Position numbers and translations under genes: made by a program. The notes beneath the pieces are model-generated. The model ran no database searches. It had not been told where the DNA came from and saw only the letters and a program-made list of their open reading frames with translations. Source: Polaromonas jejuensis NBRC 106434 (GTDB lineage: Bacteria > Pseudomonadota > Gammaproteobacteria > Burkholderiales > Burkholderiaceae_C). Taken from it: a stretch of DNA of 64,000 bases. The stretch is from the NCBI RefSeq assembly GCF_001598235.1, contig NZ_BCYO01000009.1, forward strand, positions 62,001 through 126,000. The letters are read 5' to 3'. Positions 36,569-60,110 of the stretch are shown in pieces. Positions within the stretch are counted from its first letter, which is position 1. Every line of letters starts with the position of its first letter.

Positions 36569-37600
<1,032 letters not shown>

Positions 37601-42950: not shown

Positions 42951-43185
42951 AAGGAAATCTGCGCCCGGATGAAGCTGCAAAGCGAAGGCGCACTCAAAAG
43001 CGTGCTGGGCTACACCCAAGACAAGGTCGTCGCCACGGACTTCCGCGATGATGTACGCACGTCGATCTTCGACGCTGATGCCAGCATTGCGCTTGACAGT
43101 ACCTTCGTGAAGATCGTGGGCTGGTACGACAACGAATGGGACTGCTCCAACAAGTGCCTGGAGATGGTGCGGGTGGTGGCGAGCA
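42951..43185 (+). pseudogene. gap 3'-end fragment B
   Basis: This encodes the last 77 or so residues of a glyceraldehyde-3-phosphate dehydrogenase ([49 protein letters not shown]). The active-site domain is absent. The stop codon at the family end is lost (GCGAGCAATTC instead of GCGAAGTAA), so the frame stays open into the next fragment. A trace of the terminator leader (TTCAATAAAAAC) follows. It differs from the intact gap and shares GATGTACGCACGTCGATCTT with fragment C, so B and C come from one paralogue. Confidence 0.85.
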
Positions 43186-43684: not shown

Positions 43685-44083
43685 TCAATCGGCAGCCTGG
43701 CTCGGGCTGTCGCAAATCTGCCGGATCTGCGCCGGAAGCTCCATCGGATCAAACGGCTTGGCGATCACGCCCAGCGCGCCCAGCGCCTTGTACTGGGCCA
43801 CTTCGGCCGGCTGCACTTTGGCCGTCATGAAAATCACCGGCGTGCTGGTGGTGGCCGACAGCTGGCGCAAGGCCTGCAGCGTGCTGGGGCCGTCCATGCC
43901 GGGCATCATCACGTCCAGCAAGAGCAGGTCGGCAGCAGCGCCGGGAGCCGCTGCCAGCGCTTCACTGCCCGAGGCACAGGCAATGACAGTAAATCCACCA
44001 ACGGCTTCAAGTGCCATCTGGGCAATCGCGCGGATGTCGGGTTCGTCTTCAACGTAAAGGATGCGATCAAAGGGTACGGGCAT
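43685..44083 (-). CDS. Single-domain response regulator (CheY-like)
   Basis: A 132-residue receiver domain without an output domain. The acidic pocket is YVEDEPD near residue 10, the phospho-acceptor is Asp57 ([13 protein letters not shown]), the switch Thr is in IFMTAK and the conserved Lys in [11 protein letters not shown]. It is the last gene of the leftward signalling block, 10 bp after the hybrid kinase, so it is a likely phosphoryl target of the relay. It may act through protein contact, as CheY or Spo0F do. Confidence 0.92.
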
Positions 44084-44093
44084 GGCGAGAGGC

Positions 44094-46997
44094 TCAGGTT
44101 TTGGGGTGGAAAGATCTGGGGCGGGTCAGAGTACGCATGAGCGTGGCCCGCAGTTCGTCATCGGAAGTTTTCGCCTTCAGCAGAATGGCGGTGGCGTGCC
44201 CCCTGTCGGCGTCGCTCACATCGCTGGCTGAAAAAATCACCACCGGCGGAGCTGGCTCGAGCTGCGCAATATCACCAAACAGGCTCGAGCCGGACGCCTC
44301 CTCGGGGCCCAGGTCGAGGTCAAGCAGCACGGCATCCACCACGTGGGTCCGCAGATGCGTTCGGGCTTCTTCCAGTGTGGCGGCGAATACGAACGTGGCA
44401 AGGTCCTGTGAAATGGCGGCCGTGATGCGCTGGATGTCCTGGTCGTCTTCCACATGCAGAATGCGCGGCTTGTCCCCGGTGATGCCCGCAATCGCCCGGC
44501 GCAAGCCGAGGATCAGCCGGTTTTCATCAATCGGCTTTTCGAGCCAGCCGGACACCATGAGCGGCTGGTTGTTGAATTGCAGCCGCCCCTCTTCGGCCAT
44601 GGCCGACACCACCACGACGGGCAGGTGGCGCGTGTGCTTTTCGTCGCGCAAGGCACGAATCAGCGAAACGCCGTCCCGGTCGGGCAGTCTCAGGTCCACC
44701 GTCATGGCGGCGTAGGCCTGGATCGTCAACAGCTCCAGTGCCTGCGCTGCACTGTGCACCATGTCGGCGTCAAAGCCCCCCTTGTCGAGCATCATGCCGA
44801 TCAGCTGCGCGACGTCGGGGTCGTCTGCGCACACCAGAATGCGCGGTCTGGGCGCCGGTTGGCCGGCCGTGACGGGGCCTGTGCTTGCCACGATTGACTT
44901 GATGGTCGGCCATTCGGGCAATTCAAAAAAGAAGGTCGTCCCGGCGCCTACCTCGGAGCTGAAATCCATACGGCCGCTCATGCGCTCAACGATGACCCGT
45001 GAAATGTTCAGTCCCAGGCCGGGGCCTCCTTTTTGCCGCGTATCCGACGAGTCGGCCTGCGAAAACTTCTGGAAGATGCGCGGGCGAAACTCCTGTGGGA
45101 TACCCGAACCGTGGTCACGGACCTCGACACGCACCCGCCCATCGGCTCGCAGCAGCCTGACCTGAATGGCTGTTTGCGGCGGTGAAAACTTTACGGCATT
45201 GGACAACAGGTTGGTGACGACCTGCATGAAGCGGTCGCTGTCGACAGTGGCACGCAGGGTGTCGTCGGGGGCGTCCAGCTCCAGTGCGACTTTATGCTGT
45301 GCGGCGAAGCCTTCATTGGCCGCCAGCGCCTGTTCCAGCAGGGGTTTGAGCTCGGTCACCTGCAACTCGAAGCGCATTTTTCCGGACTCGATTTTCTCAC
45401 TGTCCAGGATGTCGTTGATCAGGCGGATCAGGCGCTCGCAATTGTCCTTGGCAATGCCCACCAGGCTTTTCGCCTTGTCCGGCAGCACACCGGCCACACC
45501 GCCCGCGATCAGGCCCAGCGAGCCGCGAATCGAGGTGAGCGGCGTGCGCAGCTCATGACTCACGGTCGAGACAAACTCGCTCTTCATGCGGCCGATGCGC
45601 TTCAACTCGGTGATGTCGTTGCCCAGTGCAAAAAAGCCAATCACCCGGTCTTTCTGTTCGCCCTCGCCGTAGCGCGGGAAATACTTCATGTCGTAGTCCC
45701 GCAGGCCGCCCTGGGGTTTCATCTGGGACCTCTCGTAGCTGACCGAATAACCCGCGAGCGCCTCTTCAACCTTGTCGCGCACCTCCTCGTAACAGTCGCT
45801 GCTCAGTACCTCGCGCAGGGTCTTGCCGTGGATCTGGTCGTAGTTCAGGCCGAGGCTTTCCTCGTAGGCCCGGTTGTGAAACTGGATGCGTTGCTCCGCG
45901 TCGACGTAGGCAATCAGCGCCGGCACGGCGTCGATTACCTGCCGCATCCGGGATTCGCTGGCGCGCAGGGCGTCGCTGATGCGTTTGGTTTCAGTGATGT
46001 CATGCACAATGGATGTGAACAGCCGCTTGCCATCCACCGTAACGTTGCCGAACGACAGCTGCAGCGCAATCTCGTCGCCGTTCTTGCGCAGCCCCCGGGT
46101 TTCGCGGCCGGATTCCCTGAACCCTTCTGGCTGGGAGAGCCGGGCATTGAAATACTTTTCAAACGCAGGGCGATGACGGACCGGCATCAGTTGCGTCACT
46201 GGGCGCCCCAGCAGCTCCGGCAGCTCGTAGCCAAACAGCTTCAGGCCGGCCGCGTTGACGTTCGAGATGAGGCCGTCGGCGGTGGTGATGATCACCCCCT
46301 CGCCCATGATTTCGGTCACCGCACGGCTCATGGCCACGCTGTCGGACAACTGGGCCTCTGCCCGCCGGCGCTTCGCTTCGTAATGGTTGAGCATGAAGAT
46401 CGCCCAGCCCAGCGGCCCCAGCGAGAGCAGGCCGCCGGCCAGGATCAGCAGCTTGATGACTTGCGCGCTGCTCCGGGTTCTGTCGTGTAATCGCTGCAAG
46501 GCGAGTGATCCATTGGCTTTGATGCTCTCGACCAGGCTGTCGATGTTTTCACGAAATTGGCGATTCGAATCACTGCTGGCCTGCACGGCAGCGGCCGGCA
46601 GCCCGGATTCCTGCCGTGTTTTCACGGATTGGTCCATGCTTTCCAGACCATGGGCCATGGAAACCTCCAGCGAGGGCCATAGCCTTTGCTCGTCGGTGGT
46701 AGCGACCGCTGCGCGCGCTTCGGCCAGCGTGTTTTTCACGCCAGTGCGGGCCGCCTGGTAGGCCTTCAAATCGCCCGTGTCGGCCGTGATCAGGTATTTG
46801 CGCTGCCAGGACTCGGTGGTTTTCAGTTGGGAAACCATCCGATCCAGCAGCAGCACGGTGTCCTGCGAGTTTCTCTCGGTGCGGGCGTCGTCCAGCAACC
46901 CCTTGATGGTCGAGTAAGAGCCCACGCTGATCAGCAGCAGGAGTGCCAGTCCCGCGCCCAGCGCCAGGTTGATTTTGGTGCGGAAGGTGAATTTCAC
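44094..46997 (-). CDS. Hybrid histidine kinase with two PAS and two receiver domains
   Basis: A membrane kinase of 967 residues starting at a GTG (46997; VKFTFRTKINLALG); no ATG precedes the first helix. Domains: helix about 9-28, periplasmic four-helix (CHASE3-like) region, helix about 181-203, PAS about 215-335, PAS about 345-465, HisKA with His481 (STVSHELRTPL), HATPase about 580-695 (LLSNAVKF, GGPGLGLNISR), receiver with Asp768 (MTVDLRLPD), and a second receiver with Asp893/895 (LLDLDLGPEE). The HATPase G2 box reads GGPGLGL where GGTGLGL is usual. Kinase core and second PAS closely match the kinase at 50335. A lone Hpt gene ends 10 bp upstream. Confidence 0.9.
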   Translation of the reverse strand: MKFTFRTKINLALGAGLALLLLISVGSYSTIKGLLDDARTERNSQDTVLLLDRMVSQLKTTESWQRKYLITADTGDLKAYQAARTGVKNTLAEARAAVATTDEQRLWPSLEVSMAHGLESMDQSVKTRQESGLPAAAVQASSDSNRQFRENIDSLVESIKANGSLALQRLHDRTRSSAQVIKLLILAGGLLSLGPLGWAIFMLNHYEAKRRRAEAQLSDSVAMSRAVTEIMGEGVIITTADGLISNVNAAGLKLFGYELPELLGRPVTQLMPVRHRPAFEKYFNARLSQPEGFRESGRETRGLRKNGDEIALQLSFGNVTVDGKRLFTSIVHDITETKRISDALRASESRMRQVIDAVPALIAYVDAEQRIQFHNRAYEESLGLNYDQIHGKTLREVLSSDCYEEVRDKVEEALAGYSVSYERSQMKPQGGLRDYDMKYFPRYGEGEQKDRVIGFFALGNDITELKRIGRMKSEFVSTVSHELRTPLTSIRGSLGLIAGGVAGVLPDKAKSLVGIAKDNCERLIRLINDILDSEKIESGKMRFELQVTELKPLLEQALAANEGFAAQHKVALELDAPDDTLRATVDSDRFMQVVTNLLSNAVKFSPPQTAIQVRLLRADGRVRVEVRDHGSGIPQEFRPRIFQKFSQADSSDTRQKGGPGLGLNISRVIVERMSGRMDFSSEVGAGTTFFFELPEWPTIKSIVASTGPVTAGQPAPRPRILVCADDPDVAQLIGMMLDKGGFDADMVHSAAQALELLTIQAYAAMTVDLRLPDRDGVSLIRALRDEKHTRHLPVVVVSAMAEEGRLQFNNQPLMVSGWLEKPIDENRLILGLRRAIAGITGDKPRILHVEDDQDIQRITAAISQDLATFVFAATLEEARTHLRTHVVDAVLLDLDLGPEEASGSSLFGDIAQLEPAPPVVIFSASDVSDADRGHATAILLKAKTSDDELRATLMRTLTRPRSFHPKT

Positions 46998-47007
46998 GGC
47001 GGCACTG

Positions 47008-47358
47008 TCAGCTCTGGGATGACTCGGAAGGCAGGCTGAGCCTGACCATGTTGATCGCTTCCGTGATTTGCTGCTGCAGCGCGCCCGTGGGCGGTGCACC
47101 CGCGTCCAGCAGGGCCCGAACGGCCAGCTCCAGGGCATGACTGGCGTGGCTCAAATCGCGAGAACCGTAAGTCCCGGCCGTGCCGTGCAGATTGTGGGCC
47201 ATGCGCTCCAGGACACCGAGTTTGTCTTGTGCCTCATCGGCTTGCCGGACGTCCTGCCACAGCGCTTCGATCCGGGCCACTTTCTCAGGCAGCGTGCGCC
47301 GGTAATCGGTGCGCTGGGCCTCTATGAATTGCAGAAGCTCAAGCTTGGACCGGCTCAT
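47008..47358 (-). CDS. Stand-alone histidine phosphotransfer (Hpt) protein
   Basis: A 116-residue helical-bundle protein. The phosphorylatable residue is His55 in MAHNLHGTAGTYG, matching the usual H-x-L-K-G pattern with His in place of the Lys. It should carry phosphoryl groups from a receiver of a hybrid kinase to a response regulator. It sits between receiver protein genes and the hybrid kinase in one leftward run (23 bp and 10 bp gaps), so it very likely serves this relay. Confidence 0.88.
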   Translation of the reverse strand: MSRSKLELLQFIEAQRTDYRRTLPEKVARIEALWQDVRQADEAQDKLGVLERMAHNLHGTAGTYGSRDLSHASHALELAVRALLDAGAPPTGALQQQITEAINMVRLSLPSESSQS

Positions 47359-47381
47359 GGTGGGATGCAGTGCCAGCGCAC

Positions 47382-48194
47382 TTATTTGGCTTTTTCCGGC
47401 CAGGGTTCGGTGCTGGGGGGAATGGCTGGCCGGTCGTCGGGCAGGCCGGTCACGGTGCGCACAGCTTCCAGCAGGGCGTCGGCTTCGAACGGCTTGGTGA
47501 CATAGCCGTCTGCCCCGCCTGCCAGACCTTTGATGACCGCTTCGCGCGTGGCCTTGCCGGTCATCATGATGACCGGCACGTTTTTGAGCGCAGGGTGCTG
47601 GCGCATTCTGAGCAGAATGTCGAAGCCGTCGGCATCGGGCAGCATCACGTCCAGCAGGACCAGATCAGGAACCGGGAGTTTGCGCAGTTCGGCGACGATC
47701 TCTGCCCGCGCGCCGGCGATGCGCGCATCGAAGCCCTCGAACGTGAGGTAGTGCTGCAGGAACTTGGCCAGGTGCGGCTCGTCTTCCACAATAAGGGCGG
47801 ACAGCTCCTCCTCCTCCTCCTCCTCGGGCAGCACGCGCAGCGGCCGCTTGCGCGCAATGCGCACGAAATAGCCGGCCTTCTGCAGCGAAGCAGTACCGGC
47901 ATCGGCTTCGGCCGTGGCCAGCGTCAACGCTTTCTTCGAGGGCTTGATGGTGAACTGATCGGCAAACGGATCGTCTATCCGGACACGCAGCAACCCCCTG
48001 TCGATCAGCCGCGAGAAGGTGGCATCGAAGTCATCGGGTGGAAAAGGCTTCATGCCCGCCTTGATCTGGCCGAGGGTGAGGATGCCATCCACGCGGACCA
48101 GCAATTCAACTTCCGCGGGCAAGGCCGTGGTCATGGCACCGCGCAACTGGTGCTCACCCAGAGGCGTCAGTGAATAAACCTCCTTGTCGTGCAC
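47382..48194 (-). CDS. Response regulator with unassigned N-terminal domain and C-terminal receiver
   Basis: A 270-residue protein starting at GTG. Residues 1 to about 95 form an unfamiliar domain (VYSLTPLGEHQLRG, VDGILTLGQIKAGM, FSRLIDRGLLRVR) that looks like a winged helix with a following strand pair. Then comes a run of seven Glu and a receiver (about 131-250) with Asp182 (LVLLDVMLPDADG) and Lys in GYVTKPF. Receiver-last order is unusual for regulators. The Glu run is encoded by a CTC repeat on the plus strand (47805-47825). It may be the DNA-binding output of the relay, but this is inference. Confidence 0.8.
   Translation of the reverse strand: MHDKEVYSLTPLGEHQLRGAMTTALPAEVELLVRVDGILTLGQIKAGMKPFPPDDFDATFSRLIDRGLLRVRIDDPFADQFTIKPSKKALTLATAEADAGTASLQKAGYFVRIARKRPLRVLPEEEEEEELSALIVEDEPHLAKFLQHYLTFEGFDARIAGARAEIVAELRKLPVPDLVLLDVMLPDADGFDILLRMRQHPALKNVPVIMMTGKATREAVIKGLAGGADGYVTKPFEADALLEAVRTVTGLPDDRPAIPPSTEPWPEKAK
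47805..47825 (+). repeat. Trinucleotide repeat (CTC)7 within a response regulator gene
   Basis: Seven CTC units code, on the minus strand, for consecutive glutamates in the linker before the receiver. Slippage would change linker length without shifting the frame. Confidence 0.7.
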
Positions 48195-48241
48195 GGTATG
48201 TCAGCCCTTGTTCTTGGTTGCTGGAAGCTACCTCTTGGCGT

Positions 48242-48282
48242 GGCTATCAGGCTGATTCTAGTGATTTATCAAGGTGTGAGGC
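48242..48282 (+). repeat. Degenerate family B repeat, doubtful
   Basis: TGGCTATCAGGCTGATTCTA followed by GTGATTTATCAAGGTGTGAG G resembles the family B layout (GCTATC, then TATCAAGG and GAGGC). Too diverged for certainty. It lies in the 196-bp gap between the cyclase and response regulator genes. Confidence 0.25.
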
Positions 48283-48390
48283 AAAGGGGCGGAGGCGAGG
48301 CGAGCCCGCCGGCCCCTCGGTCGACGAGCCAGCAAGCCAGCACCCTCAAGAACCGACGCGCCGCTGCACTGGTGAAACATCCGGGGGGGT

Positions 48391-50139
48391 TTACTGTATA
48401 CCCGCCGGTGTTTCGGGGCCAGTCCCGCCGCTTGCAGCGGTTGCGGGCGGCAAGACGGCGCCCAGCGCGGAGATCAATTCGCCCAGCGAGATCTCCAGGG
48501 CCCCCAGCAGGCTGTCTATGGCCCCGCGCGGCAAGTCGTTACCGAGGGCCTGCTCCAGCGCGCCGGCATCGGCGGGCACGCGCGTGGCACCAATTTGCGC
48601 CGATATGGCCCGCAGGGAGTGACTCAGCAGTTCCGCGGTTTTCAGGTCGCCCGCATCAAGGGCTTCGCGGATGCGCACGGGCGCGTCATGGCGGCCTTCC
48701 AGGTAGCGGCGCAGCATCGACACATAAAACGGTTTCATGCTCATGGCCCGGGGGAGCCCCAGTGCGATGTCAAGCCCGGCCACACCTTCAGGCAACACCA
48801 CGTCCGCCGCACTCGTCGCCCCAAGCGCCGGCATGGCCGCCTCGGGAACAGGCGGAGCTGCAGCAGGCGCCTGCGCTACAGCCGGCGCCTCCAGACTCTC
48901 AAGCGCCCTGCGCAGTTCGGTCGCGGCGTCTGCCCGCTCCTTGCCCGTCAGGCGGCCCATGTCGATTTGCAGGTGAATTCCCGGCCGGTCGCACTGGATG
49001 ACGCCGGCATCAGCCAGCGCAGCTGCGCTGGTTTGATGCACGGCATATACCGCGATGGGCTCGGCAAAGCCCTTGGCGAGAACCGGGCCCCGGGCGTCCA
49101 CCTGGATTTCGCCCTGCACCAGGGCATGGGTTTCGCTGGAAATCAGGATTTCGCCGGGCTCGGCGGCTTGCTCCAGCCGGGCGGCGAGGTTGACCTCGCG
49201 CCCGATGATGGTGTACTCCATGCGCAGATTGCTGCCGAAATTGCCTACGTCGCAAAATCCCGAATTGATGCCGATGCGGATCTCGAAGCGCTTGTTGATG
49301 CCCATGGCCTTCCAGCGCACATGGAGCTCATCCATGCGCTTTTGCATGGCAACCGCCATCCTGACGCACTGCACCGCATCCTGCCGAGGCCCCAGGGTAT
49401 GCGGGTCGCCAAAAAAGATAACGATGGCGTCGCCAATGAATTTGTCGAGCGTGCCACCGTATTCGGCTGCGATCAGCGACATCTCTTCGAAATAGCTGTT
49501 GAGCAGGAAAGTGACTTCCTCGGGCTGCCACTGCGCCGTCGAGGCCGTGAAATTCCTGATGTCGGAAAAAAATACCGTGAGCCTTTTGCGCTGGGTCTGG
49601 ATTTTGGCCTGGCGCGAGCCGTCAAAAAGCGACCGGTAAACCTGCGGCGCAAGATAGCGCGACAGCTGCTCGGACAAGCCCTTCAGGCGTTTGGCGTTGG
49701 AACTGCGCTCCAGGTGAAGCCTGACCCGTGCAAGAAGAATGGGCGGGCTGATCGGTTTGGTGATGTAGTCGGTGGCGCCCAGGTCCAGGCCTCGTTGCTC
49801 TTCTTCCACACTGCTAAGGGCCGTCAGGAATATGACCGGTATGTCTGCCGTGCGCGGGTCGCGCCGCAGCTGCGCCATGACCTCATAGCCGTCCATGACG
49901 GGCATCATGACGTCGAGCAGGATAAGTTCGGGCCGCATGTTCGCCCTTGCCATCTCCAGGCCGGCCTCGCCCGAATCCGCCACCAGTACCTCGTAACGGC
50001 TCTCCAGCAAGGCGGCAAGGAAATAGCGGATGTCGGCCGTGTCTTCAATCACCAGGATGTGCGGCCGCGCCGGGGTAGCCACGCTGCCGGTGGCGGAATC
50101 CAGCAACCCGTCTGTTCCTGGCCTCCCCGCTTGGTTCAT
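48391..50139 (-). CDS. Receiver-class III nucleotide cyclase-Hpt protein
   Basis: A 582-residue cytoplasmic protein. Receiver domain about 26-142 with Asp76 (LILLDVMMPVMDG) and Lys in YITKPIS. Class III cyclase domain about 180-370 with metal Asp193 (FFSDIRNFT) and Asp237 (KFIGDAIVIFF), and YTIIGREVNLAARLE supplying the Asn and Arg of the transition-state site. A proline/alanine linker follows, then an Hpt-like domain with His507 (LLSHSLRAISAQIGA). Phosphorylation could therefore switch cAMP (or cGMP) synthesis, and the Hpt part could pass phosphate on. ATP versus GTP use is not settled. Gaps of about 195 bp flank the gene. Confidence 0.88.
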   Translation of the reverse strand: MNQAGRPGTDGLLDSATGSVATPARPHILVIEDTADIRYFLAALLESRYEVLVADSGEAGLEMARANMRPELILLDVMMPVMDGYEVMAQLRRDPRTADIPVIFLTALSSVEEEQRGLDLGATDYITKPISPPILLARVRLHLERSSNAKRLKGLSEQLSRYLAPQVYRSLFDGSRQAKIQTQRKRLTVFFSDIRNFTASTAQWQPEEVTFLLNSYFEEMSLIAAEYGGTLDKFIGDAIVIFFGDPHTLGPRQDAVQCVRMAVAMQKRMDELHVRWKAMGINKRFEIRIGINSGFCDVGNFGSNLRMEYTIIGREVNLAARLEQAAEPGEILISSETHALVQGEIQVDARGPVLAKGFAEPIAVYAVHQTSAAALADAGVIQCDRPGIHLQIDMGRLTGKERADAATELRRALESLEAPAVAQAPAAAPPVPEAAMPALGATSAADVVLPEGVAGLDIALGLPRAMSMKPFYVSMLRRYLEGRHDAPVRIREALDAGDLKTAELLSHSLRAISAQIGATRVPADAGALEQALGNDLPRGAIDSLLGALEISLGELISALGAVLPPATAASGGTGPETPAGIQ

Positions 50140-50211
50140 GGTCCGGATCTTCCTTTAAAACCCGCGAGCCCCGCCCCGGGGCAACCCGAATGCAGGGCGG
50201 CAGGCGCAGGT

Positions 50212-50334
50212 CTGCGCGGCACTGTGCACCATGTCCGAATCAAAGCCGCTTTTTTCAAGCATCAGGTTGATCCGCCGCGAAATGTCGGGGTCGTCTTCGC
50301 AAACCAGGATGAGGGGCCTCGTCGCAGCGCTGCC
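50212..50334 (-). pseudogene. Truncated receiver domain behind the stop of a histidine kinase
   Basis: Directly after the stop codon of the kinase at 50335, and in the same frame, the sequence encodes RPLILVCEDDPDISRRINLM and LEKSGFDSDMVHSAAQ. This matches the start of the first receiver of the kinase at 44094 (RPRILVCADDPDVAQLIGMM, LDKGGFDADMVHSAAQ). It then breaks off into unrelated sequence before the phospho-acceptor Asp. The kinase was evidently once a hybrid kinase. Confidence 0.85.
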
Positions 50335-51957
50335 TCAGTCATCAAGCGGCAGCGGCATCGCTTCGGGCAGCTCAAAGAAGAAAACGGTCCCCACCCCGAC
50401 CTCGGTTGTAAATCCCATGTTGCCACCCATGTGCTCCACGATGGCGCGGGAGATATTCAGGCCCAGGCCCGTGCCGCCCTTTTGCCGGGTGTCCGACGAG
50501 TCGGCTTGCGAGAATTTCTGAAAGATGCGCTCGCGAAACGCTTCGGGAATGCCGGGGCCGCTGTCGGCCACTTCAACCCGGATCCGCCCGTTGCTGCACA
50601 GCAACCTGATGTGTACGCAGGACGCCGGCGGTGAAAACTTCACGGCATTGGACAGCAGGTTGGTGACGACCTGGGTGAGCCGGTCGCTGTCGACATTGAC
50701 CATTACGGCGTCTGCCGGTGCATCGAGGGCCAGCTCGACGTTGTATTGGCCTGCGAAGCCTTGATTGGCCGTCAGGGCCTGCGCCAGCAGGGGCTGCAGT
50801 TTCACCTGCTGCAGCTCAAAGCGCATCTTGCCGGACTCGATTTTTTCGCTGTCAAGAATGTCGTTGATGAGCCTGATGAGCCGTTCGCAGCTATGGGTGG
50901 CAATGCCGACCAGGTTCTTGGCCTTGGCCGGCAGCTCTCCGGCGACACCACCGGTAACCAGGCCCAGCGAGCCGCGGATAGAGGTGAGCGGCGTGCGCAG
51001 CTCATGGCTGACGGTGGAAATAAATTCGCTCTTCATGCGATCGATGCGCTTGAGTTCGGTCACATCGGTACCTAGCGAGTAAAGGCCCACCACCTTGCCT
51101 TCATCCCCGTCTTCGCCATAGCGTGGAAAGTACTGCATGACGTAGTCGCGCAGTTGGCCATCCGCAGCTTTCTGCACGCGGTCATACTGCACCGCGTAGC
51201 CCAACAAGGCTTCTTCGATCTTGCTGCGCTCGTTTTCGTAAAGCTCATCACCCATCATCTCGCGCATTGTCTTGCCGTGGATTTGATCGCGCTTCAGGCC
51301 AAAGCCTTCTTCGTAGACCCGGTTGTGAAACTGAAAACGCTGTTCAGCGTCGACGTAGGCAATCAAGGCTGGCACGGCGTCCGTAATCTGGTGCAACAGC
51401 GATTCGCTGGCGCGCAACGCCTTGGTGCGCTTCTCTACGGCGTCCTCAAGGCTGCTCATCTGCAGCGTCGCTTGCCGCGCCAGTTCCCATTTGGTGGTCA
51501 GTGTCTTGGCCAGCTGGCTGACCTCGATCACGTCGAACGGCTTCTTGACGACGAGCAGGCGATCCTGCACGTCCAGCCGCGCCAGCACTTCCTCCCACGG
51601 GTAGTCGGAGTAGGCCGTGCAGATCACGATTTGCACCTGCGGGTCGATGCGCCAGAGCCGCTCGATCGTCTCAACGCCATCCCAGCCGGGGGGCATGCGC
51701 ATGTCCACAAAGGCCATGGCATAAGGACGGCCGGCCCGAACGGAGGCTTCGACCTTGGCCACGCCTTCGTGCCCCTGGTAGGCCGAATCCAGTTCGAAGC
51801 CGTCACCGGACAGCGGTGCGGCCTGGCCAAACAGGGCCGCTTCGACGTCGTCCAGATCGCGCGCCGCCGGCCTGGCTGTGAGGATCTTGCGAAAGTCCTC
51901 ATGCATCGAGGGCATGTCGTCGACCAGCAAAATGTGCCGGTTCTGCAGCGTGTTCAT
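50335..51957 (-). CDS. Histidine kinase: receiver-PAS-HisKA-HATPase
   Basis: A 540-residue soluble kinase. An N-terminal receiver (about 8-150) has the DD pair at 13-14, phospho-acceptor Asp85 (AFVDMRMPPGWDG), Thr in ICTAYSDYPW and Lys in VVKKPFD. Then come a coiled linker, a PAS domain (about 185-305, ALIAYVDAEQRFQFHNR), HisKA with His318 (STVSHELRTPL) and HATPase with VTNLLSNAVKF and GGTGLGLNISR. It closely resembles the core of the kinase at 44094. The former C-terminal receiver is cut off by a stop. ATGA overlap (4 bp) links it to the gene upstream. Confidence 0.92.
   Translation of the reverse strand: MNTLQNRHILLVDDMPSMHEDFRKILTARPAARDLDDVEAALFGQAAPLSGDGFELDSAYQGHEGVAKVEASVRAGRPYAMAFVDMRMPPGWDGVETIERLWRIDPQVQIVICTAYSDYPWEEVLARLDVQDRLLVVKKPFDVIEVSQLAKTLTTKWELARQATLQMSSLEDAVEKRTKALRASESLLHQITDAVPALIAYVDAEQRFQFHNRVYEEGFGLKRDQIHGKTMREMMGDELYENERSKIEEALLGYAVQYDRVQKAADGQLRDYVMQYFPRYGEDGDEGKVVGLYSLGTDVTELKRIDRMKSEFISTVSHELRTPLTSIRGSLGLVTGGVAGELPAKAKNLVGIATHSCERLIRLINDILDSEKIESGKMRFELQQVKLQPLLAQALTANQGFAGQYNVELALDAPADAVMVNVDSDRLTQVVTNLLSNAVKFSPPASCVHIRLLCSNGRIRVEVADSGPGIPEAFRERIFQKFSQADSSDTRQKGGTGLGLNISRAIVEHMGGNMGFTTEVGVGTVFFFELPEAMPLPLDD
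51449..51957 (-). repeat. 509-bp direct repeat, copy 1 (receiver module)
   Basis: This segment is nearly identical to 52741-53249: same length, no gaps seen, differences scattered and mostly single bases (roughly 95 percent identity by eye). It covers the start codon, the receiver and linker of the kinase at 50335. The match ends abruptly at CTGCTCATCTGCAGCGTCGC on the 3' side of the genes. Confidence 0.9.
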
Positions 51958-53249
51958 GGCGCACTCCTGTTTTCTTGTGGGTCGATGTGGTTTTCACTGG
52001 GCGGGCGTTGCCGGGAGGCCGAAGGGAGCGTGAAGTAAAACGTGGCACCTTCACCAAGTTTGGAATCGGCCCAGACCCGGCCGCCGTGCCGGCCGACGAT
52101 CCGGCTCACAGTGACCAGCCCCGCACCGGTTCCGGGAAACTCATGGACCGCGTGGAGCCGCTGGAAGGTACCGAACAGCTTGCCGGCGTAAGCCATGTCG
52201 AAGCCGCTACCGTTGTCTCGCACGAAGAACACCGCCTCGCCGTCAGCGCCATCCAGCCTGCCAACCTCGATCTCGGTATGGGTCCGAAGGGACGCGAACT
52301 TCCATGCGTTGTCCAGCAGATGCTGCATCGCGATCCGGATCAAGCGCTGGTCGCCGTGTACCCACAAGCCATCTTGAACGGTGATGGACGCCTCGCGCTG
52401 CGGAACAACGCTGCGGTATTCGCCCATGAGCTGGCGCGAGATGGCGCTCAGATCGACCGGCTCCATGCACAGCTCGGCACGCGATACCTGAGCCAGGGAC
52501 AACAGGTCGTCGATCAGTTGGGCTCCCACCACGGCACTGGCCTGAATTCTGGACAGGTAATGAAGCACCCTCTTGCTGGCATGGCCGCCCAGCTCCTTGG
52601 CCAAGAGATTGCTGAACGCGTTCATGATGCTCAGCGGCGTGCGCAGATCATGCGATACGGCGTACGCAAATGCCTCGAGCTCCTTGTTGGATTGGCGCAG
52701 GGCCGCTTCGGTCGCCGTGAGATTCTGCACGGCCTCTTCCAGGCTGCTCATCTGCAGCGTCGCCTGCCGCGTCAGCTCCCATTTGGCGGTCAGCGTCCTG
52801 GCCAGCTGGCTGACCTCGATCATGTCGAACGGCTTCTTGACGATGAGCAGGCGATCCTGCACGTCCAGCCGCGCCAGCACTTCCTCCCACGGGTAGTCGG
52901 AGTAGGCCGTGCAGATCACGATCTGCACCTGCGGGTCGATGCGCCAGAGCCGCTCGATCGTCTCCACGCCATCCCAGCCGGGGGGCATGCGCATGTCCAC
53001 AAAGGCCATGGCATAAGGACGGCCGGCCTGAACGGAGGCTTCGACCTTGGCCACGCCTTCGTGTCCCTGGTAGGCCGAGTCCAGTTCGAAGCCGTCACCG
53101 GACGGCGATGCGGCCTGGCCAAACAGGGTTGCTTCGAGATCGTCCAGATCGCGCGCCGCCGGCCTGGCTGTGAGGATCTTGCGAAAGTCCTCATGGATAG
53201 AGGGCATGTCGTCGACCAACAAAATGTGCCGGTTCTGCAGCGTGTTCAT
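51954..53249 (-). CDS. Histidine kinase: receiver-HisKA-HATPase
   Basis: A 431-residue soluble kinase. Its first 170 or so residues are almost the same as those of the next kinase (receiver with Asp85). The kinase part differs: TEAALRQSNKELEAFAYAVS leads to His200 (AVSHDLRTPLSIMN), as in phytochrome-like kinases. The ATPase domain (QHLLDNAWKF, FFVRDNGSGFDM, GTGAGLVTVSRIVGRHGG) has GTGAGL for the G2 box. There is no PAS or membrane part, so its input is probably the receiver. It overlaps both neighbours by 4 bp. Confidence 0.92.
   Translation of the reverse strand: MNTLQNRHILLVDDMPSIHEDFRKILTARPAARDLDDLEATLFGQAASPSGDGFELDSAYQGHEGVAKVEASVQAGRPYAMAFVDMRMPPGWDGVETIERLWRIDPQVQIVICTAYSDYPWEEVLARLDVQDRLLIVKKPFDMIEVSQLARTLTAKWELTRQATLQMSSLEEAVQNLTATEAALRQSNKELEAFAYAVSHDLRTPLSIMNAFSNLLAKELGGHASKRVLHYLSRIQASAVVGAQLIDDLLSLAQVSRAELCMEPVDLSAISRQLMGEYRSVVPQREASITVQDGLWVHGDQRLIRIAMQHLLDNAWKFASLRTHTEIEVGRLDGADGEAVFFVRDNGSGFDMAYAGKLFGTFQRLHAVHEFPGTGAGLVTVSRIVGRHGGRVWADSKLGEGATFYFTLPSASRQRPPSENHIDPQENRSAP
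52741..53249 (-). repeat. 509-bp direct repeat, copy 2 (receiver module)
   Basis: The counterpart of 51449-51957, covering the 5' part of the kinase gene at 51954. High identity at silent and coding sites alike points to recent duplication or gene conversion, while the kinase domains joined to each copy are unrelated in detail. Confidence 0.9.
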
Positions 53250-55045
53250 GGTGCACCCGGCGCTGTGTTGATTGGAAGTTCCAGTGTGAAGGTCGCGCCC
53301 TTGCCGGGGCCGTCGCTGTGGGCCGTGAGGGTGCCGCCCATCTGCCTGGCCGCCAGCGCACAGCTGTGCAGCCCGAAGCCGTGGCCTGCCTTGCGGGTGG
53401 TGAATCCGTGCGCAAAGATCCGCGTCAGGTTCTCCTCCGGGATGCCCTCGCCCTCATCCTTGACGGATACCCGCAAATGGGAGCCGGCGACGACATCCAC
53501 ACGCAGCGTGATCTGGTGCGATCCACCCGCCATGCTCGCCATTGCGTTCTTGGCGTTGCTGATCAGGTTTACCAGGATCTGCAGCACGCGCGCCCGGTCG
53601 AGCCGTACCACCGGTACCTGCGCAAACTCCTTGACCACGGTCACCTGATGGCGCGCGAGTGCTCCACCGTTCATTCGCAGGGCATCCTCCGCCAAATCGC
53701 ATATCTGGACTGGCACGACGAGGCTGGACCCCCCCGCATAGGATTGCTGGGTGGCCACGACGTCCTTGATGTGATCGATGCTTCGGGTGAGGTGCCCCAG
53801 TTCCTCGATCATGCCTTGCTGCTCCTGCGCCAGGGTTTGCGCAATCCTGCTCAGGTAGCCGGGCAGCATCCTGCCCTTGTCGTCAAGGGTCAGAAAATCG
53901 CCCAGGTCCGCCGCGTGCTCGTCCATCAATTGCACGGCCCGCGTCAAACCCTGGGCCCTGGAGGTGCGCAGCGTGCTGCTGACCAGGTCGGCAGAGACGT
54001 TGACGCCGTTGAGAATGTTGCCCACGTTGTGCAGCACGTTGGTGGCCATCTCCGCCATGCCGGCCTTGCGCGCCGTAGCGACCAGTTCACTTTGCATCTC
54101 GTGCAGTTCCTGAACCCGCTGCTCCAGATTTTCATTGGCGCCATGGAGTTCCTTGTTGACGCGGTTGATGACGGCATGACTGCGCACCAGACGGGCCGCC
54201 GCATACAGGAGCAGCGCCACCAGCACCACCGAGAAGATCAGCAGGTACTCACGATGCTGCCCGCTCTGCACTTCAGCGCGTTGGTGTTCAACGGTTAACG
54301 CGTTGCTGATCTCATCAATACGGGTTGCCGTCGGCACCACAGTAATACTGCCGAGAAGCTGATTGACGACCTTTTGCTCGCGCAGGATGGTGCGGACATG
54401 CGCGCCGAAAATATCCAGCTTCTCCCTGGTATCCGATGGAAAAACATGCGAACCGGCTTCAAGCCGGCTCAACTCATTCTGAATTTCAGAGCCTCTGTCA
54501 TCCGATGCGCTCTGGCTGTACAGCATGCTGGCCAGCAGCAGCTTGTTCACGCTGATCAAGGTGCGCCTGGCTGCTGACCGTGCGCTTTCACTGGTTTTCC
54601 CGATCGACTGTTCGACGTCCGCTGCCGCGGTCGGCAAGAAGATCAGCGAGTTGCGCAGCACCGAGTTGTTTGATTTGAATTGTTCGATCAGGGCGGCTTT
54701 TTCCTGGATGTCACGCAGCAGCGCCGCGCGGCCCTCCGCCAACACAGCAGCTTCGTCGTGTTTTTGGGTCTCCATGTCCGCCTTGAGCTGTTCCAGCAGC
54801 CGGCTCAATTCAGTCAGGGAGTCAGCTAGGGGATCGTAGTGCGTGTTGATGCCGACCCTGGATTTCAGCACGTCCAATTCCCATTCGGCATCCAGTTGCT
54901 TGAGATGCCGCAGCAGGGCGACATTCCCAAAGTAATCTGACTCACCAAAGCTCTGCGTTTTGGCATAGAGGAAAACCAGAACCGACAACAGTACGGCGGT
55001 TGCAACCGCCATCGGTAGCCAGGCCAGTCGATTGGACGCTCTCAC
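53246..55045 (-). CDS. Membrane sensor histidine kinase with helical periplasmic domain (DAHL-like)
   Basis: A 599-residue sensor kinase starting at GTG, which overlaps the peroxidase stop (GTGA). Helix 1 is about 9-27, helix 2 about 267-286; the roughly 240 residues between are all-helical, like the DAHL periplasmic sensor. A coiled coil (HGANENLEQRVQELHEMQSE) leads to the dimerisation helix with likely phospho-His339 (MATNVLHNVGNILNGVNVS), a non-standard H-box, and an HATPase domain with LVNLISNAKNAM, DEGEGIPEENL and GHGFGLHSCALAA. Its position after a periplasmic peroxidase suggests it senses a redox-related signal. Overlaps the next kinase by 4 bp. Confidence 0.9.
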   Translation of the reverse strand: MRASNRLAWLPMAVATAVLLSVLVFLYAKTQSFGESDYFGNVALLRHLKQLDAEWELDVLKSRVGINTHYDPLADSLTELSRLLEQLKADMETQKHDEAAVLAEGRAALLRDIQEKAALIEQFKSNNSVLRNSLIFLPTAAADVEQSIGKTSESARSAARRTLISVNKLLLASMLYSQSASDDRGSEIQNELSRLEAGSHVFPSDTREKLDIFGAHVRTILREQKVVNQLLGSITVVPTATRIDEISNALTVEHQRAEVQSGQHREYLLIFSVVLVALLLYAAARLVRSHAVINRVNKELHGANENLEQRVQELHEMQSELVATARKAGMAEMATNVLHNVGNILNGVNVSADLVSSTLRTSRAQGLTRAVQLMDEHAADLGDFLTLDDKGRMLPGYLSRIAQTLAQEQQGMIEELGHLTRSIDHIKDVVATQQSYAGGSSLVVPVQICDLAEDALRMNGGALARHQVTVVKEFAQVPVVRLDRARVLQILVNLISNAKNAMASMAGGSHQITLRVDVVAGSHLRVSVKDEGEGIPEENLTRIFAHGFTTRKAGHGFGLHSCALAARQMGGTLTAHSDGPGKGATFTLELPINTAPGAP

Positions 55046-56028
55046 GGTTTCACGTCCAGTTCGCCGGTCAGAGTGCCCAGAAACCTGATGATCGATTCTT
55101 TGTCTTCCCTGGAGCCGACGCGGCCGAGCTGGTACCTGAACATGATGTCAACGGCATCTTCCAGCGTCTTTGCGGAGGCATCGTGGAAATAAGGCGCGGT
55201 GAGCGCGACGTTGCGCAGGCTAGGCACCTTGAAGACATACTTGTCACTTTCCACCTTGGTGACGAGATAACGGCCAAGATCGGCCTGCGTCGGGTTGCCG
55301 CGCTTTTCGAAGTAGTTGCCCATGACGCCAAACTTCTGAAACATATTGCCGCCCACATTCACGCCCTGGTGGCAGGCGACGCATCCATACTGCTTGAACT
55401 TTGCATATCCGGTTTTCTCGGCGGCGGAAATGGCGTTGGCGTCACCACGCAGAAATTTGTCAAAGCGCGAATTCGGCGTGATCAGGGTCCGCTCGAAGGT
55501 CGCGATGGAATTCTGGATATTTGCCTTGGTGACCCCGTCCTTGTACGCAGCAGCAAATGCGCTCTTGTACTTGGCGTCCTGCGACACCTTTTGAACGACT
55601 TCTTCCCATTTCGAACCCATCTCAACCGGGTTCTGTATGACCTGATCAACTTGTGCTTCCAGCGAGTCGGCACGACCATTCCAGAACTGCCTGAAATTGA
55701 GCGCGGCATTGAGCACGGTCGGGGCGTGGACATCGGTCAGTCCGCCATGCAGTCCCACCGAACGCGCGCGACCGTCAGCGCCGCCCTTGCTCAGATCGTG
55801 GCAGCTGGCGCAAGACACACGGCCATTGCCGGACAGGCGCGTATCGCGAAACAGCTGCCGCCCGATTTCGGCGCGAGCCGGATCCTGCTTAAGGGTCAGC
55901 GGAATCGGTTGGATCGGCTCATCGAGCAAGGCCGCAGTGGCGGTATGGGATGCCCAGACGACCATGACGATCACGAGCTTCAACATGCTCGATGTCGTTG
56001 TTTGTATGGTGGTACGGACCGGAGACAT
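55042..56028 (-). CDS. Diheme cytochrome c peroxidase (CcpA/MauG family), exported
   Basis: A 328-residue periplasmic protein with two c-type heme sites, CASCH (RVSCASCHDLSKGG) and CVACH (YGCVACHQGVNVGG), and the family landmarks LFRDTRLSGNG, APTVLNAALNFRQFWNGR, TFERTLITPNSRFDKFLRGD and VPSLRNVALTAPYFHDA. Members reduce hydrogen peroxide, or act on protein tryptophans (MauG). The signal peptide is VIVMVVWASHTATA. The ATG at 56028 gives a long basic lead; an ATG at 55986 (MLKLVIVM) is also possible. It is the first gene of the signalling operon and overlaps the sensor kinase by 4 bp, an unusual pairing. Confidence 0.9.
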   Translation of the reverse strand: MSPVRTTIQTTTSSMLKLVIVMVVWASHTATAALLDEPIQPIPLTLKQDPARAEIGRQLFRDTRLSGNGRVSCASCHDLSKGGADGRARSVGLHGGLTDVHAPTVLNAALNFRQFWNGRADSLEAQVDQVIQNPVEMGSKWEEVVQKVSQDAKYKSAFAAAYKDGVTKANIQNSIATFERTLITPNSRFDKFLRGDANAISAAEKTGYAKFKQYGCVACHQGVNVGGNMFQKFGVMGNYFEKRGNPTQADLGRYLVTKVESDKYVFKVPSLRNVALTAPYFHDASAKTLEDAVDIMFRYQLGRVGSREDKESIIRFLGTLTGELDVKP

Positions 56029-56400: not shown

Positions 56401-56577
56401 ACCGAAGAAAAAAAAGTTGTCGCCATCGACTTCCGGGGTGATGTACGCACGTCGATCTTCGATGCCGGCGCCAGCATCGGCCTGGACGGCACCTTCATCA
56501 AGGTTGTCGCCTGGTACGACAACGAATGGGATTACTCCAACAAGTGCCTGGAGATGGTGCGCGTGGTCGCGAAATAA
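56401..56577 (+). pseudogene. gap 3'-end fragment C
   Basis: This encodes the last 56 or so residues of a glyceraldehyde-3-phosphate dehydrogenase ([47 protein letters not shown]) and keeps the stop codon and the following terminator. A 66-codon frame from an ATG at 56377 could be translated but would lack the whole catalytic part. It shares DNA features with fragment B that the intact gap does not have. It lies on the outer side of the signalling block, in the same orientation as fragment B. Confidence 0.85.
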
Positions 56578-56701: not shown

Positions 56702-57688
56702 TCATTCCTTCGGAGCGCCCGAGTTTTTTACGATGGTCTCGTAGCGTTTGATTTCCGAAATTGAAAACTTCGTGAATTCCTCCATGCTTCCGCCGGCTAT
56801 CTCGGCGCCAATTTCATGAAACCTGGTTCGAATTTCCGGTTTTTGCAGCAGCTGGTTGAATTCTTTGTTGAGCCGGTGGACCACCTCTGCAGGGGCGTTG
56901 GCTGGAAGCATGATGCCGTACCAGGCCGATGCCACCATAGGTACACCCGCTTCTTTGAAGGTGGGAACAGCCGGCAGGGCCTGAAGCCGCTTTTCAGAAG
57001 CCACGGCAAGCGGCCTCAACAGTCCACCCTTGATACTGCCCAGGGAGCCTGTATCGATCATCATGTCGATATGTCCTGCTATCAGGTCTTGCGCCGCAGG
57101 GCCGCTTCCCTTGTAAGGTACATGCCGGATGTCGATGCCGGATACGGTCTTGAATTGCGCGCCGGCCAGATGCTGCGAACTACCTATGCCCGCTGACCCG
57201 TAGGTGTATTGGCCGGGCGCGCTGCGATCAGCCTCCACAATGTCGTTCAGGCTTGTCCACGGTGATTTGGCCGGAACCACCATCACATTCGGTATGGCGC
57301 AGAGAAGGACAACGGCGGTAAAGTCCTTGACCGGGTCAAAGCCTTGCTTCGCGTACAGATGAGGCCCGGCCGCGTTGGTCGAGCTGGTGGCGAGCAAGAG
57401 GGTATAGCCGTCCGGCTTCTCCTTCACAAAGGACTGTGTGCCGATGTTGCCGCCCGCGCCCGCCTTGTTGTCCACCACGACGGCAACCCCCATCGATTGC
57501 GCCAGGCCCTGGGCGAGCAGGCGTCCGATCTGGTCTGTGGCTCCACCGGGCGCCCAGGGAACAATGATCTTGATGGGTTTGTCCGGGTAAGCAGCAAGGG
57601 CCCACGACGAGGGCAGGAGACCAAGTGCCACCACCAAAGCGCAGCGGCGCAGCTTGCCGAAAGGCTTGTTTTTTAGGCTTGTCATCAT
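56702..57688 (-). CDS. Bug-family (TctC-like) periplasmic solute receptor 1
   Basis: A 328-residue periplasmic binding protein of the tripartite tricarboxylate transporter receptor type. The signal peptide is CALVVALGLLPSSWALA. Family motifs are YPDKPIKIIVPWAPGGATD (about 33-51), AGAGGNIGTQSFVKEKPDGY, RHVPYKGSGPAAQDLIAGHI and AVPTFKEAGVP. Bug proteins bind small organic acids or amides. No TctA/TctB membrane genes are in the window, as is common for this expanded family in Burkholderiales. The ATG at 57688 follows AGGAAG and is 1 bp after the RraA-type gene. Confidence 0.9.
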   Translation of the reverse strand: MMTSLKNKPFGKLRRCALVVALGLLPSSWALAAYPDKPIKIIVPWAPGGATDQIGRLLAQGLAQSMGVAVVVDNKAGAGGNIGTQSFVKEKPDGYTLLLATSSTNAAGPHLYAKQGFDPVKDFTAVVLLCAIPNVMVVPAKSPWTSLNDIVEADRSAPGQYTYGSAGIGSSQHLAGAQFKTVSGIDIRHVPYKGSGPAAQDLIAGHIDMMIDTGSLGSIKGGLLRPLAVASEKRLQALPAVPTFKEAGVPMVASAWYGIMLPANAPAEVVHRLNKEFNQLLQKPEIRTRFHEIGAEIAGGSMEEFTKFSISEIKRYETIVKNSGAPKE

Positions 57689-57689
57689 T

Positions 57690-58352
57690 TCAGACTTCCT
57701 TCTGTTTGAGGCGTTCATCGATCCACGAGGCGGAGTAACTTCCGTTGAGGATGGACTGAATCGTTGCCAGCTCCTGGGCAACCTTTTTCCTGGCTCTTTT
57801 GGCAACAGCCAATGCCTCCTGGGGGGAGACGGCTACCAGGCCATCGGAGTCGCCAACGATGATGTCACCCGGGTTGACCAGCATGCCGCCTATGCTGATG
57901 GGCCGGTTGATGGTTCCAGGGCCATCCTTGTAAGGGCCGCGAAGATTGATACCCCGCGCCCAGCAAGGAAATTGGTGTTGTTCAAAGGCTTGCACATCCC
58001 GAACAGCGCCATCCATCACAAATCCGACGCTGCCTCGCATGCGGGCAACGGTCATCATGATTTCTCCTACCAGGGCGCGCGAAATATCTCCTGCGCCGTC
58101 CACCACGAGTGCGTCGCCGGGCAGCAGCAGCTCCAGGGCCTTGTGGATCAACAGGTTGTCGCCTGCGCGCACGCTGACCGTGAGGGCATTGCCGCACATC
58201 GTCACAGGCGTGCGGTTCACGGGATGCAGTCCGGTGGTGCCCACCAGACGACCCATCACATCACCGATCACCGATGACGGCATGCCACGCAGTGCTTCAA
58301 TCCCGGGTACAAAGGCGTCCCGTCTCGCTTCAATCGCGATTCCATTTGACAT
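57690..58352 (-). CDS. RraA/HMG-aldolase-family protein 1
   Basis: A 220-residue protein of the RraA-like fold. The family includes 4-hydroxy-4-methyl-2-oxoglutarate and oxaloacetate-type aldolases/decarboxylases and the RNase E inhibitor RraA. The catalytic Arg-Asp pair is in GFVMDGAVRDVQAF, with the glycine-rich DALVVDGAGDISRALVGEI before it and GDIIVGDSDGLVAV after. True RraA of E. coli lacks the aldolase Asp, so an aldolase or decarboxylase is more likely. It is flanked by Bug receptor genes in one leftward operon. The start is the ATG at 58352 (MSNGIAIEARRD). Confidence 0.85.
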   Translation of the reverse strand: MSNGIAIEARRDAFVPGIEALRGMPSSVIGDVMGRLVGTTGLHPVNRTPVTMCGNALTVSVRAGDNLLIHKALELLLPGDALVVDGAGDISRALVGEIMMTVARMRGSVGFVMDGAVRDVQAFEQHQFPCWARGINLRGPYKDGPGTINRPISIGGMLVNPGDIIVGDSDGLVAVSPQEALAVAKRARKKVAQELATIQSILNGSYSASWIDERLKQKEV

Positions 58353-58372
58353 GCGGATTCCTTTTTCCGGGT

Positions 58373-59353: not shown

Positions 59354-59378
59354 GTCGTTTGTCTCCTGAATTCCTGAT

Positions 59379-60065
59379 TTATTGAGCCGGCCTGGTTGCG
59401 CAAGCGCGTTGCAAGGTGTGGTACCCATACTTTTTGCGAGCCTCGGACAAGGCCATGCCACCCAGTGCGGCATTCAATATTTGCTCTTCGGTTTCGCGGG
59501 TCTGCAATGCCTTGGCAAGGACTTCATGCATCTTCAGCCTGGGTACGACCACGATGCCGTCTGCATCGCCAACGACCAGATCACCGGGCAGCACACGCAC
59601 ATCGCCCAGCGTGACCGGCTGTTCGTAAGCCTCCACCTGGACACGGTCCTTGCCTGTCCGCATGAACTTGCCGCAGGCATACAGGGGATAGCCTGCCTTG
59701 TCAGCTTCGGACGTGTCCCGGCATACGCCATGGATCACCGTGCCCCCTATGCCCTTGTGGGCGGCGAGCTGGCTGAGAATGCCGCCCCAGACCGTGCAGT
59801 CCAGACGGCCGCCATTGTCCAGAACCACCACCGTGCCTGGTGTCAAGGTGTCGATGAAATCGCCCACGGTGCCGGGCTCGAACCGGTCAACGGGGGCGAA
59901 TCGAATCGTGAAAGCAAAGCCAAACAGCTTTTGCGGGCCAGCCACGGGCTTGATGCCCAAGGCGCTGCCTGGCAAGCCGAAGTAGTCCAGCGAATCGGAC
60001 ACTTCAGCGGTGGACAGTGACCTGGCCTGTCTGAACCAGTCCAGTTTCTCGAAATCTTCTTGCAT
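59379..60065 (-). CDS. RraA/HMG-aldolase-family protein 2
   Basis: A 228-residue member of the same fold as the gene at 57690 but clearly diverged. Metal and substrate residues are seen in DNGGRLDCTVWGGILSQLAA and TVIHGVCRDTSEAD (Arg-Asp pair), with GDLVVGDADGIVVVPR later. Its C terminus (EARKKYGYHTLQRA) is longer. It is the first gene of the leftward operon. The ATG at 60065 follows GAGAG; an upstream ATG at 60095 is possible. Divergent from a LysR gene, across a 14-bp palindrome. Confidence 0.85.
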   Translation of the reverse strand: MQEDFEKLDWFRQARSLSTAEVSDSLDYFGLPGSALGIKPVAGPQKLFGFAFTIRFAPVDRFEPGTVGDFIDTLTPGTVVVLDNGGRLDCTVWGGILSQLAAHKGIGGTVIHGVCRDTSEADKAGYPLYACGKFMRTGKDRVQVEAYEQPVTLGDVRVLPGDLVVGDADGIVVVPRLKMHEVLAKALQTRETEEQILNAALGGMALSEARKKYGYHTLQRACATRPAQ

Positions 60066-60110
60066 TGTTGCGCTCTCAAATGGAGAAGGCGCCATTCTTT
60101 AGTAAAGTTA

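Follow-up and report, generated by a model that had tools for sequence, protein, structure and literature searches.

Periplasmic proteins are known to act on sensor kinases: TorT contacts TorS and LuxP contacts LuxQ (PMC6321045), and ChvE with sugar associates with VirA (PMC4030172). Here we describe a possible counterpart in which the partner would be an enzyme. The window analysed is a stretch of 64,000 nucleotides from Polaromonas jejuensis NBRC 106434 (contig NZ_BCYO01000009.1, positions 62,001 to 126,000), and its positions 43685-56028 hold nine genes, led by those of a diheme cytochrome c peroxidase (CCP) and a histidine kinase with a DAHL sensor. As in TorT/TorS (trimethylamine N-oxide sensing), LuxP/LuxQ and ChvE/VirA, the kinase would have a periplasmic partner, here from the neighbouring gene; unlike in those systems, this partner is a diheme redox enzyme rather than a sugar- or solute-binding protein. 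TorS is further alike in its all-helical sensor and is the best aligned structure to the DAHL model. The likeness to VirA lies in the sensor, the stretch of the window kinase (9-295) that best fits the NCBIfam VirA-like model NF010411, on the N-terminal side of that model (whole-protein E 3.9e-44), although the 150.8 bits of the whole kinase are far below the cut-off of 647.

The kinase is a clear member of the Pfam DAHL group (PF19443, 1.6e-55, 188.6 bits against a cut-off of 38) and carries a HATPase_c domain (79.8 bits), as expected of a DAHL sensor kinase. The peroxidase matches CCP_MauG (PF03150, 1.4e-58) over profile positions 2-148 of 149, with both CxxCH heme motifs present. It resembles classical diheme CCPs such as PDB 1iqc (1e-73) in sequence family, the two CxxCH motifs and the main active-site residues, whereas it differs from them in a P-heme loop without the distal His and in the tie to a kinase gene, and some linked relatives have also lost the catalytic Glu. 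The name 'DAHL domain' appears in an alignment-method paper (PMC8998981). No title or abstract describing a DAHL function or a CCP-kinase link was found among those listed in a literature search that covered neither most subscription papers nor bioRxiv. We hypothesize, at a probability of roughly 0.6, that the CCP acts as the periplasmic receptor in a TorT/TorS-like system and that the first four genes (module A) form an enzyme-gated three-component sensor.

Pairing of the peroxidase with DAHL kinases

The pairing of the CCP with a DAHL kinase is real and wide across several phyla: linked records belong to Pseudomonadota, Cyanobacteriota, Poribacteria, Omnitrophota and Verrucomicrobiota, several of them being metagenome bins. 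Among 299 genomes of the family, 41 contain a CCP at E 1e-70, at 43 places, 30 of which were taken as loci; a DAHL sensor, detected with a profile of our own, lies beside the CCP in 9/30. Where CCP identity is at least 59%, seven of eight family loci have DAHL (exception L045), as do L047 and L048 at ~51%, and none of the 20 unlinked CCPs of the same family (L049-L068) has DAHL beside it. The window genome itself encodes a single DAHL domain at E 0.001 and no second close CCP, its other three CCP matches being weak (best 2.8e-8).

A search of genome contigs with the CCP, from which the best 80 of 588 relatives were taken, showed that in 79/80 (exception L135) the next gene downstream, in the same orientation, encodes a DAHL kinase; this fraction is biased by a query alignment already rich in linked CCPs. 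The DAHL domain begins 12-110 nt past the CCP stop in 78 of these 79 loci (275 nt in L122, whose frames are split), and an in-frame kinase start at an exact 4-bp overlap with the CCP was found in 66/79, not counting L109, where translation from the overlap start meets a stop.

The DAHL-seeded survey did not select on the CCP. In the class sample (185 genomes, E 1e-15), 20 genomes had 22 DAHL places between them, with a CCP next upstream at 22/22. In the phylum sample (349 genomes, E 1e-5), 51 genomes had 71 such places; 70 of these were read (30 loci including the window, and 40 of the other 41), and a CCP was next upstream in 60/70 (30/30 loci and 30/40 others). Taken together, both samples have a CCP next upstream at 81 of 91 distinct places, and in 80/81 of these pairs the DAHL domain begins 3-120 nt past the CCP stop (601 nt in L180, with a split CCP frame). 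In a CCP tree of 101 chosen rows, from which most Pseudomonas rows were left out, the 'linked' label needs three changes and long branches are flagged; the tree gives no demonstration of a single origin of the linkage. The nearest named relatives of the window CCP in it are from Polaromonas.

Residue signature and modelled fold of the DAHL sensor

Five residues of the window sensor (D71, K124, N132, S133 and H216) do not vary at all in a diverse set of 41 linked sensors, made up of the window and 40 of the 79 linked loci, chosen for spread. Linked sensors of the two DAHL-seeded sets retain D71 in 51/51 and 30/30 and H216 in 46/51 and 26/30; the three sets have a few members in common. D71, N132 and H216 are missing from all seven unlinked sensors of L033-L038, six loci in other Burkholderiales families; K124 occurs in none or one of the seven, according to how they are aligned, and S133 in three or four. 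When the ten CCP-less places of the DAHL-seeded survey, minus L241 and L258, are joined to these seven, D71 occurs in two of 15 unlinked sensors (L255, L261) and H216 in one (L255; L261 ends before that position). Genome G659 offers a close comparison: besides a linked copy (L195) it has a CCP-less DAHL (L252) in which D71 falls in a gap and positions 132 and 216 hold Ile and Ala, K124 and S133 being kept. On these alignments, whose sequences are related to each other so that no probability is attached, the five-residue signature is typical of linked sensors and absent from most unlinked ones.

An AlphaFold2 (AF2) model of residues 1-312, built from 41 sequences, is all helical with a mean predicted local distance difference test (pLDDT) score of 91.2. 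Its top Foldseek matches are McpS (2.4e-4) and TorS (1.1e-3). VIA-align superposed the TorS sensor 3i9y with a Z of 18.8 and a root-mean-square deviation of 2.6 A over 213 aligned residues, consistent with a TorS-like helical fold; malate-bound McpS reached Z 17.0 and TorS-TorT complexes Z 16.4. Vinculin, talin, IpaD and others also appear in the VIA list and were taken as generic helical bundles. Among PDB sequences, the best match to the DAHL sensor had an E of 0.93.

Peroxidase active site

By alignment, the window CCP keeps the active-site Gln and Glu, the inter-heme Trp and the E-heme Met; the column assignment is our own and the residue roles follow PMC10094543. According to that paper, the oxidised P heme of classical bacterial CCPs (BCCPs) is bis-His, its distal His being lost on reductive activation, and Gln and Glu active-site variants are inactive. 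The window CCP has Leu in place of the distal His on the P-heme loop after SxG, and thus does not class with the BCCPs that undergo reductive activation. A His at this position is found in 0/89 linked-type CCPs of one set (the window and the unpaired L135 included) and in 0/81 of the other (two being gaps); of 20 unlinked CCPs, eight have His there, 11 have Asp and one has Val. A loss of the distal His exclusive to linked CCPs was considered and rejected: the unlinked L052 also lacks it and 11/20 unlinked proteins have Asp.

In both linked sets CxxCH, Trp and Met hardly vary, the E-heme Met being kept in 89/89 and 79/80 aligned linked-type proteins. The catalytic Glu is present in 84/89 linked-type CCPs, but in only 62/80 aligned rows of the DAHL-seeded set (18 without), where the active-site Gln is found in 72/80. 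Changes at the Glu site include NPKVM and short deletions, and some rows are poorly alignable. Because the Glu is lost in some linked CCPs and the heme ligands are kept, we infer that the hemes count more than catalysis for the conserved role of the protein.

Exchange of the sensing cassette and diversity of outputs

In the window, the DAHL kinase is followed by a receiver-histidine kinase (RecHK) and a receiver-PAS-histidine kinase (RecPasHK). The congener G024 has a cluster ~10 kb from the gap (glyceraldehyde-3-phosphate dehydrogenase, GAPDH) gene, with a RecHK and a RecPasHK 80% and 74% identical to those of the window. Two further kinases there are 75-76% identical to the window DAHL kinase over the histidine kinase core only. 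Two tripartite ATP-independent periplasmic (TRAP) DctP binding-protein genes, with a 4-bp overlap, precede the first of these kinases, whose sensor part has no BLAST similarity to DAHL. Binding protein and sensor thus appear to replace peroxidase and DAHL on the same kinase core, which is the strongest hint of a receptor role, coming from one genome. The sensor kinase of this cluster (L028, 6570-18632) bears a HAMP domain, and the cluster is followed by a Peripla_BP_4 binding-protein gene.

The third-gene scan covered 54 proteins: the product of window gene 3 and, for 53 of the 54 loci with a called gene close behind the DAHL kinase (L112 was left out), the product of that gene. Of these proteins, 43 contain a receiver and 34-35 contain a kinase core. 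Other neighbours of the pair vary: the Pseudomonas locus L073 has a gene for a receiver-PAS-GGDEF-EAL protein upstream and, on the opposite strand, one for a receiver-HD protein, L148 a receiver-HD protein, L138 a receiver-HDOD protein and L143 receivers with a Ser/Thr kinase. Some other lineages carry c-di-GMP-type (cyclic di-GMP) or other outputs next to the pair, and the cyclase of the window would be a local output, as judged by position only.

Two modules in the window locus

Comparison of the loci read divides the nine genes into two modules, A with genes 1-4 (50335-56028) and B with genes 5-9 (43685-50139). Polaromonas sp. P2-4 (L122) has the order CCP, DAHL kinase, RecHK and a RecPasHK with two C-terminal receivers; a converging gap piece lies ~100 nt past the RecPasHK, and the cyclase set is not between them (20.9 kb covered). 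In the congener G159, the cyclase protein, receiver protein and hybrid kinase occur together; no match to the CCP is found there at E 1e-70, and none to the CheY gene or the lone Hpt. G260 carries the CCP and its kinase on one contig, the pair of cyclase and hybrid kinase on another and the receiver protein on a third. Within the window, gene 4 ends early, and a receiver-domain piece then continues it and breaks off before gene 5. The stretches 44742-45978 (gene 8) and 50212-51427 (gene 4 and the trailing piece) are paralogous, at 73-78% DNA identity in three long blocks with a spacing of 5449-5470. Because the modules are separate in P2-4, G159 and G260 and a receiver piece stands at the join, we conclude that A and B probably evolved apart and were joined near 50200 in the window lineage.

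The original prediction had seen in the nine genes a single branched relay that leads to the synthesis of a cyclic nucleotide. Its central element has held: the peroxidase and the DAHL kinase do belong together, in both the CCP-seeded (79/80, best 80 of 588) and the DAHL-seeded (81/91) counts. The synteny expected for the cyclase gene did not follow, P2-4 having module A without B and G159 having B genes without the CCP at the threshold given above. A single conserved operon was accordingly discarded, given the modules found apart in the three genomes. Peroxide or heme redox as the signal, also proposed there, is a candidate that fits.

Some further observations concern the same loci. P2-4 has another gap stretch ~3.6 kb past the gap fragment that adjoins module A, and its CCP, DAHL and gap genes are each in two pieces, as from frame changes (sequencing error or decay). 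A search of viral contigs with the hybrid kinase confirmed no relative.

Proposed mechanism and alternative explanations

Our reading of the CCP as a receptor builds on the conserved pairing and gene order, the overlap, the residue signature, the modelled sensor fold and the sequence signature of an open heme; export, physical docking, the signal, the direction of regulation and phosphotransfer are its inferred steps. The CCP would be exported, and its P heme, without the usual distal His, would be open to hydrogen peroxide, another oxidant or a heme ligand, while the E heme could report the redox state of periplasmic electron donors. The protein would dock on the TorS-like all-helical DAHL sensor of the next-encoded kinase through a site that includes D71, K124, N132, S133 and H216, and change the activity of this kinase once docked. 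RecHK and RecPasHK may then accept the phosphoryl group of the DAHL kinase on their N-terminal receivers. Module B, with its Hpt, cyclase and hybrid kinase, would be a separately evolving output set that was joined to A in this lineage.

Several observations weigh against this reading. No CCP was found at 10 of the 91 DAHL places (L236-L239, L241, L242, L252, L255, L258, L261), of which L241 and L258 stop at a contig end, L238 has ~0.95 kb upstream, and L241 and L242 are below the Pfam cut-off; nor was one found within 20 kb of any of the seven DAHL-type kinases of L033-L038, five of which exceed that cut-off. Because of these two groups, DAHL can work without a CCP, and the proposition that DAHL always has a CCP was rejected. 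Conversely, no DAHL was found for the linked-type CCPs L045 and L135, even at E 10. The signature is not strict either: some linked sensors lack K124, N132, S133 or H216 (present in 45, 48, 44 and 46 of 51, respectively), and the unlinked L255 and L261 keep it as far as read. An unrelated designed bundle (6egc) aligns with the sensor model at Z 16.2 over 132 residues and helical models reach ~14 by chance, and for this reason the likeness to the TorS fold is no more than suggestive. For the CCP, AF2 gave a poor model from 10 sequences (pLDDT 55), which was not used, and no docking site was placed. Finally, gene pairing as such cannot tell a receptor from a co-regulated enzyme.

One alternative, which we consider unlikely, is that the CCP serves detoxification and is regulated by or co-expressed with the kinase. 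The DAHL kinase would then respond directly to stress or to a small ligand of its own, much as malate is bound by McpS, and the overlap would do no more than hold enzyme and regulator together. The match of the DAHL model to malate-bound McpS suits it, as do the conserved D/K/N/S/H set, which could form a ligand pocket, the active-site Gln and Glu retained in the window CCP and most linked CCPs, and the existence of CCP-less DAHL kinases. A ligand sensor of this kind is harder to reconcile with the lack of the signature in most unlinked DAHL domains, with the 18/80 linked CCPs of the DAHL-seeded set that lack the catalytic Glu by alignment and retain the heme ligands, and with G024, where a binding-protein pair and another sensor accompany the same kinase core. 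The enzyme could instead act on the kinase chemically, in the manner of MauG, by oxidising a residue in either the DAHL sensor or a partner, the covalent change being the signal. The CCP does belong to the CCP_MauG family, the sensor has a conserved His and Lys, and MauG oxidises tryptophans of another protein (PMC6405878). The same paper gives Tyr-His ligation for MauG, whereas the E-heme Met is kept throughout the linked CCPs but for one aligned row, and the catalytic Glu is not universal; we regard this explanation as very improbable.

Scarcely more probable is the branched relay of the original prediction, in which all nine genes carry a signal from peroxide to a cyclic nucleotide. The common strand and dense spacing are in its favour, an Hpt together with receivers suits a phosphorelay, and the DAHL kinase of L148 itself bears receivers and an Hpt domain. 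Modules A and B are nevertheless found apart, with a receiver piece at their join, and the whole set occurs only in the window among the loci read. We therefore retain the CCP as a candidate receptor of the DAHL kinase, with module B as a probable later addition.

Layout of the window locus

The nine leftward genes, with the domains described in the original prediction, were confirmed as open reading frames, all open on the minus strand and located at the expected positions (Table 1). The 4-bp overlaps proposed among the first four genes are exact (GTGA, ATGA, ATGA), and gaps of ~195 nt precede gene 5 and gene 6. The N-terminal part of gene 6 is indeed unassigned: its first 125 aa (window 47820-48194) match no Pfam family even at E 10. 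At E 1e-35 the whole gene 6 protein has matches in 3/250 family genomes; all three belong to this genus, and one of them is the window genome. In gene 5, Pfam detects Guanylate_cyc (6.6e-28) and a weak Hpt (0.0033, below the family cut-off). The hybrid kinase of gene 8 most likely starts at a GTG at 46997, 10 nt past the stop of the Hpt gene. A scan for promoters and terminators found no clear excess over shuffled sequence (promoter-like 2 against 3.0, terminator-like 14 against 13.0).

Table 1. Features of the peroxidase-kinase locus and its flanks in the window.
Feature	Coordinates	Strand	Basis or details
Gene 1, module A: diheme cytochrome c peroxidase (CCP)	55042..56028	-	N-terminal hydrophobic stretch, two CxxCH, P-heme loop without distal His
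Gene 2, module A: DAHL-sensor histidine kinase	53246..55045	-	sensor ~residues 32-263 (presumed membrane ends); conserved D71, K124, N132, S133, H216
Gene 3, module A: receiver-histidine kinase (RecHK)	51954..53249	-	Pfam
Gene 4, module A: receiver-PAS-histidine kinase (RecPasHK)	50335..51957	-	Pfam, including PAS_4; without the two C-terminal receivers of the P2-4 relative
Receiver-domain piece 3' of gene 4, A/B join	50212..50334	-	DNA self-comparison block 50212-50325 and relatives
Gene 5, module B: receiver-class III nucleotide cyclase-Hpt	48391..50139	-	Pfam
Gene 6, module B: receiver protein, N-terminal domain without Pfam family	47382..48194	-	Pfam
Gene 7, module B: lone Hpt	47008..47358	-	Pfam
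Gene 8, module B: CHASE3-PAS-PAS-HK-REC-REC hybrid kinase	44094..46997	-	Pfam
Gene 9, module B: CheY-like receiver	43685..44083	-	Pfam
gap (GAPDH) 3' fragment, cluster flank	43018..43182	+	
Second gap 3' fragment, direct repeat of the first (83%)	56408..56572	+	

The receiver-coding parts of genes 3 and 4 (52717-53016 and 51425-51724) share 94% DNA identity over 300 nt, which points to a recent duplication or conversion. An intact gap gene follows tkt at 36602-37600, and two gap 3' fragments of the same orientation downstream bracket the cluster; the 3' end of gap looks like a place where insertion or exchange has happened repeatedly. Beyond the cluster, the stretch 56702-60095 has a lower G+C and carries what we take to be two Bug-type binding-protein-like genes and two RraA-like genes. 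Outside this genome, the loci L033-L038 represent a second DAHL subtype, with a same-strand next gene of ~630-700 aa in 6/6 loci and no CCP; by its first residues, the product of this gene looks like a Ser/Thr protein kinase.

Biological meaning

To our knowledge, periplasmic peroxide or redox sensing through bacterial kinases is poorly known, and we found no described signal for DAHL. Its near-fixed partner, the residue signature and the natural exchange of the cassette make this question testable. There is about an even chance that the DAHL class of kinases depends mostly on a dedicated diheme peroxidase for its read-out; this enzyme would serve as their standard periplasmic receptor in several phyla with diverse outputs and in some lineages is probably no longer catalytic. 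If the proposed receptor role of the CCP is true, a classical family of detoxifying enzymes would have a second role as a signal receptor.

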